Source: an uncultured beta proteobacterium (GTDB taxonomy: Bacteria > Pseudomonadota > Gammaproteobacteria > Burkholderiales > Burkholderiaceae_C). From it: 36,847 nt of DNA. This document shows, in pieces, positions 23,963 through 31,012 of this stretch. The notes beneath the pieces were generated by a model that worked only from the letters and a program-made list of their open reading frames with translations, was not told the origin of the DNA and made no database searches. The position numbers and the translations under genes are program-made. The number at the start of each line of letters is the position of its first letter. Within the stretch, counting starts at the first letter, position 1. The stretch covers positions 1 to 36,847 of the forward strand of contig CAIYRQ010000059.1 of NCBI GenBank assembly GCA_903928635.1, in the 5' to 3' direction.

Positions 23963-24038
23963 GCGGCTGTAGCTCAGTGGATAGAGTATTGGCCTCCGAA
24001 GCCAAGGGTCGTGGGTTCGATCCCCGCCAGCCGCACCA
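23963..24038 (+). tRNA. tRNA-Arg (anticodon CCG)
   Basis: The 76-nt gene folds as a standard cloverleaf. The acceptor GCGGCTG pairs with CAGCCGC, the anticodon stem TTGGC/GCCAA encloses CTCCGAA with anticodon CCG, the T-loop is GTTCGATC in context GTGGG..CCCGC, and CCA is encoded (24036-24038). It reads CGG codons. Its 3' end abuts an integrase gene, so it is the probable chromosomal attachment site. Confidence 0.96.
23999..24038 (+). other. Probable attachment site (attL side) at the tRNA-Arg 3' end
   Basis: P4-type tyrosine recombinases usually integrate at the 3' end of tRNA genes, and the integrase starts 175 bp downstream of this tRNA in the expected orientation. The core site would be the anticodon-to-CCA half. 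I found no second copy of the 3' segment in the rest of the window, so the exact core is undefined. Confidence 0.55.
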
Positions 24039-24138
24039 CTTTTTCATGTCAAACCGTCTCAGATGGCTCCAAAAAAGCCAGTTTCTATAGCTACGGCGGT
24101 TTTTGATAGTCTCACCTCACCTCATCTGGTAGCATGAC

Positions 24139-24201
24139 ATACCGCCAGATTGGCGGCATTTTTGGCGGTATCTGCAACTAACGCCAATCCACATACCGCC
24201 A
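24139..24201. repeat. Three ATACCGCCA copies upstream of the integrase gene
   Basis: ATACCGCCA occurs at 24139-24147, inverted at 24163-24171 (TGGCGGTAT), and again directly at 24193-24201, just before the integrase ribosome binding site. An additional internal TGGCGG lies at 24151-24156. They could be integrase arm-type sites, excisionase sites or an autoregulatory operator. Confidence 0.6.
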
Positions 24202-24213
24202 GCAAGGTGAAGC

Positions 24214-25437
24214 ATGGCCCTGAATGACACGTTCATAAAAAACAGCACAAAGCACAGTGGCAAGGCCGCTGGCGACAAGTACACCGATGGTGGCGGCATG
24301 TACTTGCTCGTAACCGCTGCCGGTAAATACTGGCGCATGAACTACAGGTTCAACGAGAAGCGCAAGACGCTGGCTTTGGGTGTCTACCCCACCGTACCCC
24401 TTGCCGAGGCTAGAAAACGCCGTGAAAAGGCGCGTGAGCAGCTTTCTAAGGGCATTGACCCCAACGCTGCCAAGCGTGAAGAAAAGCAGGTCAAGGCCGA
24501 CTTAGCTGCCAACACCTTTGAGCTTGTCGCTCGCGCATGGCTAAAAAAGACAGCAGTAACCCGCAAGGAGATTACTCAGAGCCGTATCACAACCCTGCTC
24601 GAGCATGATGTATTCCCGTTCATCGGGGGGCTGCCAATCAACACGCTGGGCCCAAGAGATGTGCTCAACAAGGCGCTGCGCAAGATTGAGGCACGCGGGT
24701 CAATAGACACAGCCCATCGTGCAAAGCAAATTTGCGGGCGCATCTTCCGCTACGGTGTCGCTGTGGGACTCGCTGAGCGCGACGTCACGTCAGACCTTCG
24801 TGGGGCGTTGGAAGAAATTCCCAAGTCCCACTTTGCCGCCATCACCGAACCCAAGCAAGCTGGCGAATTGATGCGATCCATCTACGGATACACCGGGCAC
24901 CCCAGCACTGTGGGAGCGTTGAAACTGGCACCGTTGGTCTTTGTCAGGCCGGGAGAGCTCCGTCAAGCGGAGTGGACGGAGTTCGACCTCGATGGCGCGG
25001 AGTGGCGCATACCCGGCTCCAAGATGAAAATGAAATTGGATCACATCGTGCCTCTTTCCACGCAAGCACTGGCCATCTTGAGAGGCGTGCACCCTATCAC
25101 AGGGCACGGTCGATACGTCTTTCCAAGTTTGCGGTCTGATGAGCGCCCCATGAGCGAAAACACACTCAATGCAGCATTGCGTGGCATGGGGTACAGCAAA
25201 GACGTTCACACCGCGCACGGCTTTCGTGCCATGGCTCGAACCATCCTCGATGAGGTGCTTGGCGAGCGGGTTGATCACATTGAGCACCAACTGGCGCACA
25301 CCGTCAAAGACCCCAACGGCCGGGCATACAACCGAACCGCGCACCTTCCCGCCCGTCGAAAGATGATGCAACGCTGGGCCGACTATTTGGACAAGCTGCG
25401 CACGGGGGCAGAAATCATCGAGTTCAAGGTTGCATAG
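24214..25437 (+). CDS. Site-specific tyrosine recombinase (P4-type integrase)
   Basis: This 407-aa integrase catalyses insertion and excision of the element at the tRNA-Arg gene. The N-terminal DUF4102-like arm-binding domain has GGGMYLLVTAAGKYWRMNYR and ALGVYPTVPLAEARKRR. The catalytic residues read Arg245 (FVRPGELRQAEW), His335/Arg338 (HGFR), a second histidine in HIEHQLAH and Tyr372 (GRAYNRT). All are present, so the enzyme looks intact. AAGGTGA precedes the ATG. It is oriented away from the tRNA, the usual layout for tRNA-targeting islands. Confidence 0.95.
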   Translation: MALNDTFIKNSTKHSGKAAGDKYTDGGGMYLLVTAAGKYWRMNYRFNEKRKTLALGVYPTVPLAEARKRREKAREQLSKGIDPNAAKREEKQVKADLAANTFELVARAWLKKTAVTRKEITQSRITTLLEHDVFPFIGGLPINTLGPRDVLNKALRKIEARGSIDTAHRAKQICGRIFRYGVAVGLAERDVTSDLRGALEEIPKSHFAAITEPKQAGELMRSIYGYTGHPSTVGALKLAPLVFVRPGELRQAEWTEFDLDGAEWRIPGSKMKMKLDHIVPLSTQALAILRGVHPITGHGRYVFPSLRSDERPMSENTLNAALRGMGYSKDVHTAHGFRAMARTILDEVLGERVDHIEHQLAHTVKDPNGRAYNRTAHLPARRKMMQRWADYLDKLRTGAEIIEFKVA

Positions 25438-25494: not shown

Positions 25495-26256
25495 GTGACA
25501 ACGCACATCTATGACCTTCAGGAAGAGTTCCTCGGGACTGAAGCCGCCAAATTGATCGCTGGAGCGTACGATAGTCCCCGGGAGCATGCTAGTTATAGAG
25601 TTACTTTGGAGCTTATGAGAAGTTCGTATGAGGTCGCGCTTGGGCACTTCCGAAAAATTTCTCAACTGGATGAATCGCACAATTGGCGTGACTCGCCGCC
25701 TGATACATCACTGCAAAGTGTGGCACTGCAGCAATGCATACGGCTACTTGACGTCGATCCAAAGGGCGCAACAATTGAGGTGTGGTTATCGAGATCCAAG
25801 ACTGTGTTTGAGGCGCAAAAATTCGCCCGTGAAGAGCTACAGAGATGGATCAAGGTCAATGATCTAGAAAGTGCCTATACGTTTATCTTGGTTGGACAAC
25901 TTCATGAAACACCAGCAAATGCGGGTCCGATCCCAACGGCCAACGTTGACCATTCGATGATTTTCCCCCCAGACGATCTGATTGCCGCATTTGGCCCAGC
26001 GACTGGCATGAACTTTAAATGGTTCAAAAATCTCGCGGATCGAGCCGATTTACAAAAGGCAAGGAAGGAAAAAGGACGACCTCAAAGAGGGCACACTCGC
26101 CCCCCGCTTTTTTGCCCGTATTTGGTCATGAAGTTTCTCAATAAGCCAAATCATCGGGTCGGCAGAACTCTGTCCGTACAACATGGATGGCGGCTCCTTG
26201 AGCAACACTTCCCTGCCGTTTATCGAGCTCATTCACGCGAAAATCCGAGCGAATAG
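25495..26256 (+). CDS. Unknown protein encoded next to the integrase
   Basis: I do not recognise this 253-aa protein. It is soluble, without signal peptide or membrane segments, and mixes helical charged stretches (AREELQRWIKVNDLESAY) with a basic linker (KARKEKGRPQRG) near residues 185-200. The start is GTG at 25495 with GAGGACC upstream. By eye the DNA is richer in A/T than the backbone genes, consistent with acquired DNA. Being directly behind the integrase, it could be accessory cargo or an element maintenance gene. No functional claim is supported. Confidence 0.7.
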   Translation: MTTHIYDLQEEFLGTEAAKLIAGAYDSPREHASYRVTLELMRSSYEVALGHFRKISQLDESHNWRDSPPDTSLQSVALQQCIRLLDVDPKGATIEVWLSRSKTVFEAQKFAREELQRWIKVNDLESAYTFILVGQLHETPANAGPIPTANVDHSMIFPPDDLIAAFGPATGMNFKWFKNLADRADLQKARKEKGRPQRGHTRPPLFCPYLVMKFLNKPNHRVGRTLSVQHGWRLLEQHFPAVYRAHSRENPSE

Positions 26257-26414
26257 TCAAATCAGTATTGCTGTACCAAACAGGGTAAATCCTTCATTCC
26301 AGCAAGGTAACGCAACTCTTCCAGCAGGGTTTGCCCTCTGAGACCCGGCTGGGCAATTCCGGAATTTTTTGCCCTGCCATCGTAATTCCCCTGCCAATTA
26401 CAGGAGGAAACACT

Positions 26415-26642
26415 ATGGCAACGCAATCACTCTCATCATTTGACAGACTACCCGAATCAGGGTACGTCAGACAGGCGCAACTCACACCGGACGTAATTCC
26501 ATTCAGCCCGGCGACGCTGTGGCGGAAGTGCAAGACCGGATCATTCCCAAAACCCGTCAAGCTGTCGCAGCGCGTAACAGCTTGGCGCGTGGGTGAGGTT
26601 CGCGATTGGCTTAATACGCAATCGAAAGTAGACCAAGCATGA
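26415..26642 (+). CDS. AlpA-family helix-turn-helix regulator
   Basis: A 75-aa protein with the MerR/AlpA-like winged helix pattern: LPESGYVRQAQL, then FSPATLWRKCKTGSFPKPVKLSQRVTAWRVGEVRDWL. In AlpA proteins this segment binds DNA. They act as excisionases or activators of integrase in cryptic prophages and islands. AGGAGG at 26402-26407 gives an excellent ribosome binding site for ATG 26415. Its place between integrase and primase is typical of P4-like satellites. Confidence 0.9.
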   Translation: MATQSLSSFDRLPESGYVRQAQLTPDVIPFSPATLWRKCKTGSFPKPVKLSQRVTAWRVGEVRDWLNTQSKVDQA

Positions 26643-26721: not shown

Positions 26722-26994
26722 GTGATTAACCCAAAAAGCAACGGGCTGACCACACCACATAGTCAACCCGCCAAGACTTACACGCCTAATGTTATCAATT
26801 TGGATTATCCGACAGGCAGCCGCCCGTGTAAACAGAAAGCGACTACGACTGCGCTGTTTGCACCTGCTGGACATGTTGCGCGCCGTGGCCCTTGTAACGA
26901 TTACACCGACTGCAAATTCGGTCAGTCCCGCTACCGCCAAGACCTAGTCGAATTGAATGCATTTGCGGTGCGTCTGGGGGTGTGCCATGTTTAA
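26722..26994 (+). CDS. Small hypothetical protein upstream of the primase gene
   Basis: A 90-aa open frame begins with GTG 8 bases after GGAGG. It contains four cysteines (RPCKQK, GPCNDYTDCKF, LGVCHV) and no membrane segment. The stop overlaps the primase start by 8 bases, suggesting translational coupling. I recognise no family. It may be a small zinc-binding regulator or a non-coding stretch that happens to be open. Confidence 0.45.
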   Translation: MINPKSNGLTTPHSQPAKTYTPNVINLDYPTGSRPCKQKATTTALFAPAGHVARRGPCNDYTDCKFGQSRYRQDLVELNAFAVRLGVCHV

Positions 26995-29665
26995 CGCACA
27001 CAACCCAGCAATTGAAGCGGATAACGCGATAGCGCCTCATGAGACCCACAACACTTCAAAAACAACGAGTTCTGATTCAAGTAAAAAAATCACGAAGCAA
27101 GCCCCAGAACAGTTTTTGACATTACTCGCTGAGGGAGATGATGCGTTCACTTTCCAAACCTTTGATGACAACAAGAAGCGCAAAGATGTGTCACTGACGC
27201 GCTTGCTTCACGGGACCTTAGATCAACACTTCGACGAGTTATGTCGGCTCAACGCGTTGGGTGCTGGTATTTTCGTGACCGTCAACGAAACAGACCTCAA
27301 GGGCAGGACCAAGGCTAATATTGTCAATGTGCGCGCTGTATTCCAAGAGGCCGATAGGCTTGGAATCCCAATCCCACCGCTGCAGCCGCACATCGTGGTC
27401 CAGACATCTCCGGGTAAATTTCATCGCTACTGGCTCACACACGAAAGTGAAGCCGCACTAAGGGAGTACGAGGGCGTAATGCGCACGATGGTCGACCAAT
27501 ATGGGTCCGACCCAAACGCGCGCGACCTAGCCCGTGTGCTGCGATTACCCGGTTTCTTGCATATGAAGGATGCCGCTAACCCATTCTTGGTTTGTATCGT
27601 AGAAGCGTCGCATGCCCAACCATACACTTGGGAACAAATAACAGCGGTTATCCCGCCAACCCCTCCTGTTGAGTCCACACAAACCCAAGGCAGCAAAGGC
27701 AACGAAGGCGGCTTTGGCAAGGACCATTGGCGCGTACTCAGCGCTGTCAAAGTTCTTGACCCTGATAGCGCATATGGGGCGTGGCTTCACATGGGCATGG
27801 CCTTGCACCACGGGTCAAGCGGCGGCGCAGCTGGCCTAGTTGTTTGGGATGACTGGAGCGCACGGGGCGGAAGCTATCGCGACGGGGAAACAAAATACAA
27901 ATGGTCCACTTTCGGCAAAGGCAACGGCGCGCAAATAACGCTGGCCACCCTATTCCACCATGCCGCACAAAACGGCTGGGAATGGGACCGGCAACATAAA
28001 TTGTCAGTCCTACCAGAGGCTAAAACCTTTGTTGAATCAGCAATCGCAGCCAGCAACCACCAGAACTCCATAGTCAACGATGAGGTTGTCTCTGCGCTGA
28101 GTCTCATCAAATCTTGTGACCCACTGGCATTTGAGTCGCTGCGGATGCGTATCAAGGCGGATTGTCCCGGCGTCCGTATGAGCGCTCTTGATGACTTCGT
28201 CAAAGGTTCTTCTGGCAGCCATGACTTTGAAAGTCTTTCCGACATGCTTGTGCAGTTGGCCTGTGAACGTTGTGAACTTTGGCATGACCCTGAAGGGAGG
28301 TGCTACGCTACGTTTGAGCGGGAGCACCAAGGTAGGACCCACAACGAGCATTGGGAAATATCGTCTACTGGATTTACCGAGTGGATTGGAATGCTGGCAT
28401 ATACCGAACTGGGTAAGGCCCCGTCCAAAGAAACGCTGACCACGGTCAAGAATGCTTTGAACGGAGAGGCTCGCTTCGACGGCGACGAACACAACGTGTT
28501 TCGGCGCGTCGGGAAGGACGAAAGCGGGTACTGGGTTGATTTGTGCAATGACCATTGGCAAGCAGTTTGCATCACGACGGTGGGATGGCGTGTGTGTGAC
28601 GCTCCCAGCGTGCGCTTTGTCCGCACAAAGGCTATGCAAGCTTTGCCCAGCCCACAGCAGGGCGGCTCCTACGAGCCTTTATGGCCTTTACTGAATGTCC
28701 CACCGGAAGACCATATGCTGGTCCTTGCATGGATTTTGGAATGCTTCCGCTGCGATACCCCGTACCCGGTGCTTGAACTTTCGGGCGAACAAGGTTCTGC
28801 AAAAAGCTCCACCCAGTCCTTACTGCGCAGCATCATTGACCCCAATCAGGTGATGCTACGGGGTCGCCCCAAGACCGTGGAGGACGTTTACGTCTCGGCC
28901 AAAAACAATCACCTGTTGAGCTTTGAGAACCTGTCCAACATCACCACCGATATGTCAGACGCACTATGTACCGTGTCAACTGGGGGCGGTACGGCGGGAC
29001 GTACGCTGTACACCAATGACGAAGAGACCACCCTGAAGGCGCACAACCCGGTTGTACTCAACGGCATCAGTGCCGTGGTTCTACGTCAGGACTTGCTTGA
29101 CCGAACCATCAGCATCGGCTTACCTACCATAGCGCAGCGCCGCACCGAGAAGGATATGAAGGAGGGGATTGAAATACGGCTATCGTCGATATTTGGCGGA
29201 ATAGTAACCCTGTTCAGCCAAAGCCTTGAACGGCTACCCTCCGTGGAAATTGCCACCGAAGAACTTCCTCGAATGGCAGACTTTGCCAAATTAGGGGAGG
29301 CCATGTCATCGGCGCTCGGCTATCCACCAAGGCATTGGCTTGCCATGTACAGCGACCACCGCAAGAACGCGGTGCGGCGCACGATTGATTCCTCACCTGT
29401 TGCCGTTGAGTGTCTTAAATTTGTTGAGCAGGGCGGTATCCATAGGGGCACAGTTAAAGACCTATTGGAAAAGCTCGACGGCATTCGTAGTACTGCGTTG
29501 GAGCACAAGGAGAATTGGCCGCGAAGTCCAAGGGGGTTAGCCGAAATCTTGCGCCGGGTTGCGCCAAGCATGCGTCTGCTGGGGGTCCACCTATCCGTGA
29601 ACGACAAACATCGGGACGGCGTCCACTGCTCGCTCTGGAAGATACCAGAGGCTACCTTGGTTTAG
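26987..29665 (+). CDS. Primase-helicase-like replication protein (AEP/RepB-like primase, PriCT, P-loop ATPase)
   Basis: This 892-aa protein has the layout of replication proteins of phage satellites and integrative plasmids. Residues about 40-220 resemble the RepB-like archaeo-eukaryotic primase domain (GIFVTVNETDLKGR, VRAVFQEADRLGIP, VVQTSPGKFHRYWL, ARVLRLPGFLHMKD). Residues about 245-330 resemble a PriCT-type domain (AYGAWLHMGMALHHGS, KWSTFGKGNGAQITLATL). The C-terminal ATPase carries Walker A GEQGSAKSS at 600-608 and a Walker B-like LLSFENLSNI near 645, then a sensor-like VVLNGIS. GGGGGTG precedes ATG 26987; an upstream ATG at 26957 lacks one. It probably starts replication of the excised element. 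Confidence 0.85.
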   Translation: MFNAHNPAIEADNAIAPHETHNTSKTTSSDSSKKITKQAPEQFLTLLAEGDDAFTFQTFDDNKKRKDVSLTRLLHGTLDQHFDELCRLNALGAGIFVTVNETDLKGRTKANIVNVRAVFQEADRLGIPIPPLQPHIVVQTSPGKFHRYWLTHESEAALREYEGVMRTMVDQYGSDPNARDLARVLRLPGFLHMKDAANPFLVCIVEASHAQPYTWEQITAVIPPTPPVESTQTQGSKGNEGGFGKDHWRVLSAVKVLDPDSAYGAWLHMGMALHHGSSGGAAGLVVWDDWSARGGSYRDGETKYKWSTFGKGNGAQITLATLFHHAAQNGWEWDRQHKLSVLPEAKTFVESAIAASNHQNSIVNDEVVSALSLIKSCDPLAFESLRMRIKADCPGVRMSALDDFVKGSSGSHDFESLSDMLVQLACERCELWHDPEGRCYATFEREHQGRTHNEHWEISSTGFTEWIGMLAYTELGKAPSKETLTTVKNALNGEARFDGDEHNVFRRVGKDESGYWVDLCNDHWQAVCITTVGWRVCDAPSVRFVRTKAMQALPSPQQGGSYEPLWPLLNVPPEDHMLVLAWILECFRCDTPYPVLELSGEQGSAKSSTQSLLRSIIDPNQVMLRGRPKTVEDVYVSAKNNHLLSFENLSNITTDMSDALCTVSTGGGTAGRTLYTNDEETTLKAHNPVVLNGISAVVLRQDLLDRTISIGLPTIAQRRTEKDMKEGIEIRLSSIFGGIVTLFSQSLERLPSVEIATEELPRMADFAKLGEAMSSALGYPPRHWLAMYSDHRKNAVRRTIDSSPVAVECLKFVEQGGIHRGTVKDLLEKLDGIRSTALEHKENWPRSPRGLAEILRRVAPSMRLLGVHLSVNDKHRDGVHCSLWKIPEATLV

Positions 29666-29679
29666 GTGAGTACTCCGTA

Positions 29680-29750
29680 CCACGTTCACGACATTCACAA
29701 CGTTCACAGAAAACAAACCGACGTGAACATCGTGAACTATGTGAACGTGG
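29680..29750. repeat. 71-bp symmetric array of six TTCAC/GTGAA boxes (candidate origin or operator)
   Basis: TTCAC occurs at 29685, 29694 and 29703, exactly 9 bp apart. Its complement GTGAA occurs at 29723, 29732 and 29741, again 9 bp apart. The two triplets are mirror images around 29715. The outermost 10 bp (CCACGTTCAC / GTGAACGTGG) are a perfect inverted repeat, and an A-rich 13-bp centre separates the triplets. It begins 15 bp after the primase stop. Iteron-like arrays beside replication genes often mark origins; an operator is the alternative. Confidence 0.8.
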
Positions 29751-29817
29751 TTTTAGGCTCTAACCTTCATTAAACATCCCTTAAGCACCAACCTGAATTT
29801 ACCAACAACTTCACGAC

Positions 29818-30423
29818 ATGGAACGAGCAACTGCAAGAGACGCTATGAAATTACGGGAGCAATCTCTGCGTAAAAGGGTTTCAGCGTCCAAAACCGACCC
29901 AATTCGACGTGCCTGTGACCTTGGTGAGTCCGACGACCTCGCAAGCCAATCCATGGCGCTGATGACCCCTCCTAACCCGCTTAAAACCGGCCTTGGAGGC
30001 GAGGTGATACCCATGGTGGCCCAAGGATTACCGGGGCTGGAACTGGCCCTAAAGGAGCCAGACTTGCTGGACGTGGAGGTCACAATCCAAAGAACTCAAT
30101 TGGCGGACAGGGCCGGTGTGTTTGAGATGGCCATAGAGGCCTCGGAAAGCGTCAGGGCTAAGAACTCGATTCAACGTATGCAAGCCCACCAGTTGGCCCT
30201 CGCCCACAAATACGCCATGGATTTGATGGCGGATGCATCTAAGCAACACGACCCCGTCATCAAGGTGAAGTTAATCAATTGCAGCGCCCGGCTTATGGAT
30301 GTTTACAGCAAGGGTGCGCTTGCCCTTCAACGGTTACAGCAGGGAGCCAATCAAATCGTGCAAGTCCAGCACGTTCAGGTTCACGGACAGGCCGTTATCG
30401 GAAATGTAGGGGGCAGCAAATGA
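29818..30423 (+). CDS. Element-associated protein of unknown function
   Basis: This 201-aa protein is soluble with two parts: a basic N-terminus and a helical C-terminal half with AHQLALAHKYAMDLMADASK, KLINCSARLMDVYSKGALALQRLQQG, ending in QIVQVQHVQVHGQAVIGNV. I recall similar C-termini (QxVxVxHVxVxxGGQAVVGxV) in proteins encoded next to HGG-STGP proteins in alpha- and betaproteobacterial mobile DNA, but their function is not known to me. The ATG at 29818 lacks a good ribosome binding site; ATG 29845 is an alternative. The stop overlaps the next start as ATGA. Confidence 0.75.
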   Translation: MERATARDAMKLREQSLRKRVSASKTDPIRRACDLGESDDLASQSMALMTPPNPLKTGLGGEVIPMVAQGLPGLELALKEPDLLDVEVTIQRTQLADRAGVFEMAIEASESVRAKNSIQRMQAHQLALAHKYAMDLMADASKQHDPVIKVKLINCSARLMDVYSKGALALQRLQQGANQIVQVQHVQVHGQAVIGNVGGSK

Positions 30424-30656
30424 AAAACAGCAACAACCTCATGAAAGAGGCAAGAGCAGCCCTCGCCATGCATCCGCAGTGCGGGGCGAAATGTAAGCAG
30501 TCAGATGGATACTGTCGCAACCCATCCATGTTGAACGGCAGGTGCAGGATTCACGGTGGAAAATCTACTGGGCCAAAGCCTAAGCATGGGCAATATTCTG
30601 CTGGGGCCAAATTGCGACGAAAGCAAATCCGTTCTTTACTTGACGCGATGCAGTAG
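30420..30656 (+). CDS. HGG-STGP motif small protein, first copy
   Basis: This 78-aa basic protein carries a zinc-ribbon-like cluster: CGAKCKQSDGYCRNPSMLNGRC followed by RIHGGKSTGPKP. The HGGxxTGP motif marks a family common in phages and integrative elements whose role is unknown; four cysteines and a histidine could bind zinc. ATG 30420 overlaps the previous stop (ATGA) and has GGGGG upstream, so both genes are translationally coupled. Confidence 0.8.
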   Translation: MKNSNNLMKEARAALAMHPQCGAKCKQSDGYCRNPSMLNGRCRIHGGKSTGPKPKHGQYSAGAKLRRKQIRSLLDAMQ

Positions 30657-31012
30657 TGTGGACGCCGACCGAAAATCCCCCCCCGAGAGGCCATTATTCA
30701 ATCGGCGCGAGCACCATATGGGATCAAATAGGCAATGCGCGCTCCCACGCCCGCAGCACCGGTGCCCCTTGCAAGGCCAAGGCCCTGCCCAACGGACGCT
30801 GCAAGCTGCACGGCGGGCTGAGCACCGGCCCAAAGACTCTGGAGGGCAAGCAGGCCATCGGCGCGGCCACCAAGGCGCGCATGGCCGCTGAGCAGTTACA
30901 GAAGGCCCAAGAGGGCCGCACACGCTGGCTGGATACTGGTGGGCGGGAGTACCTGTCGCGTCTGGCAAAGAGGCGGGCTGCTCGCGCAAACTCGTTTAAA
31001 AGAATGAATTAG
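30656..31012 (+). CDS. HGG-STGP motif small protein, second copy, probably frameshifted near its start
   Basis: The open frame from GTG 30656 encodes 118 aa. Its core STGAPCKAKALPNGRCKLHGGLSTGPKTLEGKQAIGAATKARMA matches the same family as the upstream gene, followed by a helical basic tail. The N-terminus looks unnatural: an ATG at 30718 in another frame begins MGSNRQCA, which would join to RSHARSTGAPC as in family members if one base were restored near 30740-30745. So the true gene is likely 30718-31012 with a one-base deletion (real or sequencing error). It duplicates the function of the first copy, or targets a different partner. Confidence 0.6.
   Translation: MWTPTENPPPRGHYSIGASTIWDQIGNARSHARSTGAPCKAKALPNGRCKLHGGLSTGPKTLEGKQAIGAATKARMAAEQLQKAQEGRTRWLDTGGREYLSRLAKRRAARANSFKRMN

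Follow-up and report, generated by a model that had tools for sequence, protein, structure and literature searches.

What is the function of a short, strictly mirrored array of repeats that follows directly on the gene of a primase-helicase? In the 36,847-nucleotide stretch of DNA analyzed here, which we call the window, such an array occupies positions 29680–29750. A first-pass annotation had described it as six TTCAC/GTGAA boxes at an exact 9-bp spacing, three on one side mirrored by three on the other around an A-rich center, had judged it far too regular for chance, and had offered two readings, an origin of replication bound by the primase-helicase or an operator of the HGG operon that begins downstream. 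We consider it highly likely that a small integrative element has its replication origin here and that the boxes are read by the initiator whose gene lies directly upstream.

The reported geometry was reproduced at every position, including the span of 71 bp and the distance of 68 bp from there to the ORF that starts at 29818. The TTCAC 5-mers start at 29685, 29694, and 29703 and the GTGAA 5-mers at 29723, 29732, and 29741, with steps of exactly 9 bp within both arms. Extended to hexamers, the first arm reads GTTCAC gac ATTCAC aac GTTCAC on the + strand (box 1, 29684–29689, which is GTGAAC on the − strand and begins at the 19th base past the primase-helicase stop; box 2, 29693–29698; box 3, 29702–29707; all three oriented to the − strand). 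After the 15 bp AGAAAACAAACCGAC (29708–29722) that separate the hexamer arms, the + strand continues GTGAAC atc GTGAAC tat GTGAAC (boxes 4, 5, and 6 at 29723–29728, 29732–29737, and 29741–29746, oriented to the + strand). The two iteron sets are inverted and hold three boxes each, with the core GTGAAC in five of the six and one mismatch in the remaining one, box 2. The center is A-rich, as had been claimed, with nine A, six G or C, and no T among its 15 bases. Chance is a poor explanation of this regularity: a 3+3 mirror arrangement in 9-bp steps, whatever its 5-mer, occurs once in the window and in none of 100 dinucleotide shuffles of the whole window. In the element's own genome (2.83 Mb in 297 contigs), the pattern GTGAACN3GTGAACN3GTGAAC with at most one mismatch has two matches, which are these two arms, and the reversed control pattern has none. 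A perfect GTGAACgttGTGAAC pair at 28263–28277 was considered as a second site and set aside as a probable coincidence; it lies inside the helicase gene, over the partly conserved CEL motif.

The intergenic region that holds the predicted origin (29666–29817) has a G+C content of 43%, versus 54% in the gene before it (26957–29665) and 57% in the genes after it (29818–31012). The description of the array as neither coding nor a terminator stands for the most part; what qualifies it is an overlapping 82-aa ORF, which we judge to be mechanical, and one weak terminator-like site on the − strand in a consensus scan of 29600–29900 (shuffle mean, 0.4).

The surrounding genes, all on the + strand, are those of a mobile element. 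A tRNA-Arg(ccg) gene (23963–24038, by tRNA call), the probable integration site, is followed by the tyrosine integrase of the island (24214–25437; Pfam Arm-DNA-bind_3, Phage_int_M, and Phage_integrase), a 253-aa ORF (25495–26256) with no family in Pfam, PHROGs, or NCBIfam, and an AlpA-family regulator or excisionase (26331–26642; Pfam Phage_AlpA, E = 7.5e-9). Next comes the predicted initiator of 902 residues (26957–29665), which combines a RepB-type (AEP) primase and PriCT-2 (Pfam RepB_primase and PriCT_2) with a D5-like helicase assigned by fold match and a predicted C-terminal winged helix. Beyond the array lie a cargo ORF of 201 aa without assigned function (29818–30423), with relatives in four other genomes of the same genus, and two small HGGxSTG-domain ORFs (30420–30656 and 30656–31012; NCBIfam NF041373). 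The extent of the element is uncertain because no second att site was found: no exact copy of at least 11 bp of 23963–24214 occurs further right in the window on either strand, a search for exact copies within the window that a degenerate or distant repeat would escape.

If the array is the origin of this initiator, it should accompany the gene in its relatives, and its absence there was the outcome that the first-pass annotation had named as speaking against an origin. Relatives were collected at several levels. In an order-level sample, 31 of 300 genomes (own included) matched the whole protein, most in the primase domain only; in a phylum-level sample, 12 of 398 (own included) matched the helicase part; and from viral contigs, the best 80 of 148 confirmed helicase relatives were taken. 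One more locus, L039, found through its DNA pattern, was added to the helicase loci. With a profile, the helicase ORF was located in all but one of the 103 loci examined (102), and in 101 it has a stop (L094 is without one); clustering removed 47 of the 101 as near-duplicates, leaving 54 non-redundant loci. The order-level loci in the array count are L040–L046 only, L046 being without a helicase match. L047–L068, whose matches lie in the primase part except for those of L050 and L056 in the helicase part, were left out of it; outside the count, L050 has no array and L056 has a GTTAA array 3′ of the gene.

An array was defined as a 5-mer or 6-mer repeated at 8–11 bp and found again inverted within 350 bp, between −450 and +600 around the stop. 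Such mirrored boxes are present near the stop in 33 of the 54 loci for 5-mers and in 23 for 6-mers, versus 7 and 0 of 1080 shuffles, and in 31 and 22 of 52 loci when the window and the pattern-selected L039 are left out; L107 and L161 are included among the 33 even though inspection by eye suggests chance. These frequencies did not refute the origin reading. The other 21 loci, among them the fairly close L043 and L151, have no array by this rule, nor was one found in those whole loci. Over spacings of 6–20, the preferred spacing of 5-mers is 9 bp (27 of 52 loci), followed by 18 bp (7), 17 bp (5), and 8 bp (4). When whole loci were scanned for 5-mers at 9 bp, array centers fell at −300 to −1 in 16 of 52 loci and at 0 to +299 in 12 of 52, often inside the 3′ end of the helicase ORF, and just six locus-bins elsewhere between −3600 and +2999 were occupied. 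Because the arrays center so close to the stop, with few elsewhere, the array is a property of the 3′ end of this helicase gene. L042, from a genome of the same order (G037), has both helicase and array, with the same score and reading as L009.

The position of the array is retained in these relatives while its sequence changes. GTTCAC boxes occur in L042, L040, L070, L152, and L039, GTCCTG boxes in L041, and GTCCT in L074 and L153. CGTCCG-type boxes are found in L073, L045, L076, L078, L099, and L158, CGTCAG-type boxes in L044, L087, L083, L088, L090, and L098, and CGTCAC-type boxes in L079, L096, L102, and L159, with further types in other homologs. The closest order-level homolog, L040 (52% identity), keeps GTTCAC/GTGAAC at 8–9 bp with its arms about 200 bp apart. 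Among 31 loci (L107 kept; L159 and L161 out, their proteins falling below the alignment cut-off), box distance correlates with winged-helix distance (Mantel r = 0.54; partial r = 0.25 given the helicase core, a value reached in 2 of 5000 permutations). It also correlates with the distance between helicase cores (r = 0.59; partial r = 0.38, reached in 0 of 5000). These correlations indicate that box and protein evolve together. As a pointer to the reading domain, the test was discarded, the winged helix and the helicase core not being separated by it; the winged helix is not singled out as the reader because box distance tracks the helicase core at least as well.

Structure prediction suggests how such an initiator might be built. 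An AlphaFold2 model of residues 383–902 from 43 sequences (pLDDT 91, pTM 0.86) has as its best solved Foldseek match the SCCmec Cch helicase 5dgk (E = 1.4e-9), followed by primase-helicases of large DNA viruses, NrS-1, the SaPI5 primase-helicase 7ola (TMt up to 0.59), and the PriRep1–dsDNA structure 7pds. By this model, the window helicase has the D5-type fold of Cch and SaPI Rep. The last 131 residues modeled alone (pLDDT 94) show the order H-E-H-(short H)-H-E-E, which is that of a winged helix, and a C-terminal winged-helix domain is predicted at about residues 814–895 (29396–29641), which we propose as the reader of the boxes. Searched alone with Foldseek, this domain has no PDB match at an E value of 0.001 or better, the highest-ranked entries including O-methyltransferases and DNA-bound chains of archaeal Orc1 (2v1u, E = 0.058, TMq = 0.52). 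In 49 family members, the C-terminal domain gave no convincing Pfam match (best E = 0.014, each family in one member), and a profile search of PDB sequences returned a myosin heavy chain (E = 0.0007) and weaker designed or helical proteins, all taken as chance.

Several known systems share parts of this layout. Among them are the SaPIs and related PICIs. According to the sections of PMC7581432 and PMC6092414 on which we draw, SaPI Rep recognizes, through its C-terminal domain, iterons directly downstream of its gene (PMC7581432), and the PICI origin lies 3′ of rep, the primase-helicase gene, with two iteron sets flanking an AT-rich region (PMC6092414); a pri-rep-ori plasmid was tested there for maintenance with mutant controls. 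The window element resembles a PICI in origin and gene order, with integrase, AlpA-type gene, and pri-rep all in one direction (PMC6092414, in the same sections), and its modeled helicase fold matches the SaPI5 primase-helicase. Unlike the PICIs, it has a short center, a host in Burkholderiales, no att repeat that we found, and no packaging or interference gene family recognized among the downstream ORFs in Pfam, PHROGs, or NCBIfam; because of these last two points, we do not file it as a PICI. In SCCmec, which provides the best fold match (5dgk), the C-terminal domain of Cch2 binds repeats 3′ of its gene, although there the primase is a separate protein and the iterons are three AAGTG only (PMC7581432, same sections).

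Phage P4 offers a likeness at the level of the boxes. The P4 record annotates type 1 ori repeats (core GTGAACA) in crr directly 3′ of alpha. Along the alpha strand, a single forward box of crr is followed by boxes in inverse orientation, by a stretch rich in A, and then by GTGAACagtGTGAAC at 9 bp. The motif GTGAACN3GTGAAC lies 3′ of alpha in each of the 10 P4-like loci examined, of 80 collected. We take the GGTGAACA repeats to be the alpha-binding sites of P4. This assumption fits a passage in PMC4234260. Window array and crr share the GTGAAC core, the 9-bp spacing, inverted boxes, an A-rich stretch, and the place directly 3′ of the initiator gene. They differ in that the flanking bases of the P4 octamer are not kept at all window boxes, that crr, which is duplicated, is the less regular of the two and has a forward box preceding its inverted ones, and that P4 carries type 1 repeats in a separate ori region as well; alpha, moreover, has a TOPRIM-type primase in the account excerpted from PMC4234260. 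The winged helix was considered as a homolog of the P4 origin-binding domain and rejected: BLASTP detected no similarity between alpha and the window protein, hhalign of the C-terminal domains gave a probability of 0.3%, and the P4 domain is not among the 50 listed structural matches of the winged helix.

Another such system is orf904 of pRN1, which in the same excerpts unites an AEP primase with a helicase and a winged helix in a single protein and has an essential region 3′ of its gene, but an origin that is a 100-nt stem-loop without iterons (PMC4234260). The RepA iterons of PLE, as given in a portion of PMC7145576, are of the RepA_N kind, a different system. The sections of PMC8628076 and PMC10061031 consulted hold nothing on such repeats. 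By title, none of the literature matches to the box sequences concerns replication origins, and none of the papers on iteron origins of such elements concerns this primase-helicase family. The window array very probably extends a known kind of origin to this little-studied family.

The operator that the first-pass annotation had offered as its second reading, with the boxes as sites for AlpA or another regulator of the 201-aa/HGG operon, has in its favor that the operon begins so soon after the array, that inverted arrays are typical of operators too, and that an AlpA protein controls the induction of a PICI (PMC6092414, in the part cited above). We nevertheless regard it as quite unlikely, because the array follows the helicase gene in homologs, where it often lies within the coding sequence. 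Relatives of the 201-aa gene occur in 5 of 61 genomes searched (own plus four of the same genus), and in none of these four does a GTGAAC array precede the gene; at one of the loci, L260, a different ORF contains a mirrored pair of a 5-mer with 10-bp spacing. A consensus scan of 29600–29900 found no sigma-70-like promoter. The cargo relatives (L258–L261), three of which are accompanied by HGGxSTG genes, come after genes of other kinds, some of them replication-like on visual inspection, and cargo and replication modules seem to be exchanged in these loci; in L259, inverted GTTCCC boxes seen by eye after a RepA-like ATPase gene, upstream of the cargo relative, would agree with a swap of the replication module next to a cargo that is retained.

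Two further readings concern the form of the repeat itself. The array could act as a hairpin or cruciform, a structure-based origin rather than a set of separate double-strand binding sites, and its + strand can indeed form a broken hairpin, with a better fold than most shuffled sequences reach (z = −2.6; 2 of 200 as good). In the window, however, the boxes of this predicted hairpin pair whereas the 3-base spacers do not, a hairpin needs no 9-bp phase within an arm, and in some homologs (L040 and L070) the arms lie about 200 to 255 bp apart. Spacer bases are complementary across arms at 46 of 60 positions in 20 helicase-family arrays and at 28 of 48 in 16 RepA-type arrays, but this agreement may reflect nothing more than a repeat unit that exceeds six bases, and as a test of a hairpin it is confounded and was dropped. 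Even with the pRN1 stem-loop as a precedent 3′ of a primase-helicase gene (PMC4234260, in the excerpts cited), this reading seems unlikely to us. A selfish or incidental repeat, such as a REP-like hairpin that happens to follow the gene, is very improbable: although 14 of 35 pattern matches in genome contigs (see below) have no assigned replication gene, the array is unique in its own genome and recurs at the 3′ end of one gene with changing sequence.

We return, then, to an origin read by the primase-helicase, which is supported by the arrays beside homologs and by the likeness in layout to the origins of SaPIs and PICIs, SCCmec Cch2, and phage P4, the systems from which binding and origin function are carried over. 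Our proposal sets out from what was computed, namely an array in 9-bp phase that sits 3′ of the initiator gene and does so again in homologs, together with the winged-helix model and the helicase fold match; initiator binding, melting, and loading in both directions are borrowed from published relatives. The primase-helicase of the element would bind the six boxes through its C-terminal winged helix, three per arm and in opposite directions. Helicase rings could then assemble on the two arms, the DNA would melt at or beside the array, and the fused RepB-type primase would start both strands. That the origin acts after excision of the island we infer without a direct parallel. Features that count against an origin include the center of only 15 bp, with 60% A+T, and the arrays missing from 21 of the homologous loci. 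Should the proposal be correct, gene plus 71 bp would form a predicted minimal replicon of 2.8 kb for primase-helicases whose reading domain has no Pfam model, and the natural pairs of winged helix and box would offer ready material for studying DNA recognition by this domain. The layout also supplies a simple rule, opposed boxes in 9-bp phase where an initiator gene ends, for finding candidate origins in unannotated elements.

The same box and spacing recur more widely, beside unrelated initiators of other phyla too. A search of viral contigs and genome contigs with GTTCACN3GTTCACN5-35GTGAACN3GTGAAC matched 3 viral contigs and 35 stretches of genome contigs, and in 21 of the 35 a replication-type gene contains the array or has it at its 3′ end. 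In 16, the gene of an AAA_25 RepA-type ATPase stops no more than 13 bp from the array (all by Pfam; e.g. L013, 2324–2374); in L009 and L039 the gene is a homolog of the window's helicase, and L007, L012, and L032 have AAA_25, Toprim_3, and DUF3631 genes, respectively. On the other side of 13 of the 16 AAA_25 arrays is a DUF6371-type gene (one by Pfam, the rest linked by phmmer), and an array so placed between a RepA-type initiator and a primase-like gene is likely an origin. In L024 and L027, the array adjoining AAA_25 is the first of several. The remaining 14 stretches have no assigned replication gene, L031 being too short and the other 13 having had one neighboring ORF checked against Pfam, which proved to be something other than a replication gene or to lack a family.

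All three viral matches adjoin replication genes, RepA twice and an NrS-1-like protein once. Of RepA relatives found by protein in viral contigs, 4 of 5 have a mirrored array directly 3′ by the same rule (a sixth, L165, is the contig already selected as L003), with boxes GTTCA in L164 and TGTAAC in L166, L167, and L169, the first two of which look alike; L168 has no array by the rule, although irregular GTTCAC/GTGAAC boxes are visible by eye. In the relatives with TGTAAC boxes, the RepA end with its helix-turn-helix also differs by eye. By count alone, the GTTCAC hexamer is not special, because the control hexamers TCTGAC and CATCTG give 0 and 2 stretches in viral contigs versus its 3; the two control matches lie in repeat-rich ORFs, structural by eye, whereas the three GTTCAC matches adjoin replication genes.

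A layout like that of the PICIs (two iteron sets 3′ of the initiator gene) has been said to be restricted to them in the part of PMC6092414 on which we draw. Its occurrence beside other initiators would extend it beyond PICIs to many replicons and argues against that restriction, at least for the layout. It is even conceivable, although we consider it rather doubtful, that mirrored 9-bp GTGAAC arrays at initiator 3′ ends are an origin language common to non-homologous initiators across phyla, among them P4 alpha, the RepB/D5 family, AAA_25 RepA-type ATPases (mainly of Bacteroidota), and DUF3631 and Toprim/NrS-1-like proteins. Origins might, equally tentatively, have been exchanged between elements, or the box might serve a shared step such as primer start. 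Most of the cross-phylum examples were found through the hexamer itself.

Two minor observations concern arrays in other settings. Mirrored GTTCAC/GTGAAC clusters lie between ordinary chromosomal genes in L005, L006, L008, L021, L025, L026, L028, L029, L033, L035, and L036, as do the further arrays of L024 and L027, mostly in Bacteroidota (Mucilaginibacter and SZAS MAGs); the neighbor checked is not a replication gene, and these clusters might be hairpins of a terminator-like or selfish kind, or else origins that elements have taken with them. In L007, L009, L012, and L032, the 3′ end of the initiator ORF contains the array, whose translation is a repetitive tail (for example VHSVHSVH, VNVVNV), so that the putative origin there doubles as coding sequence.
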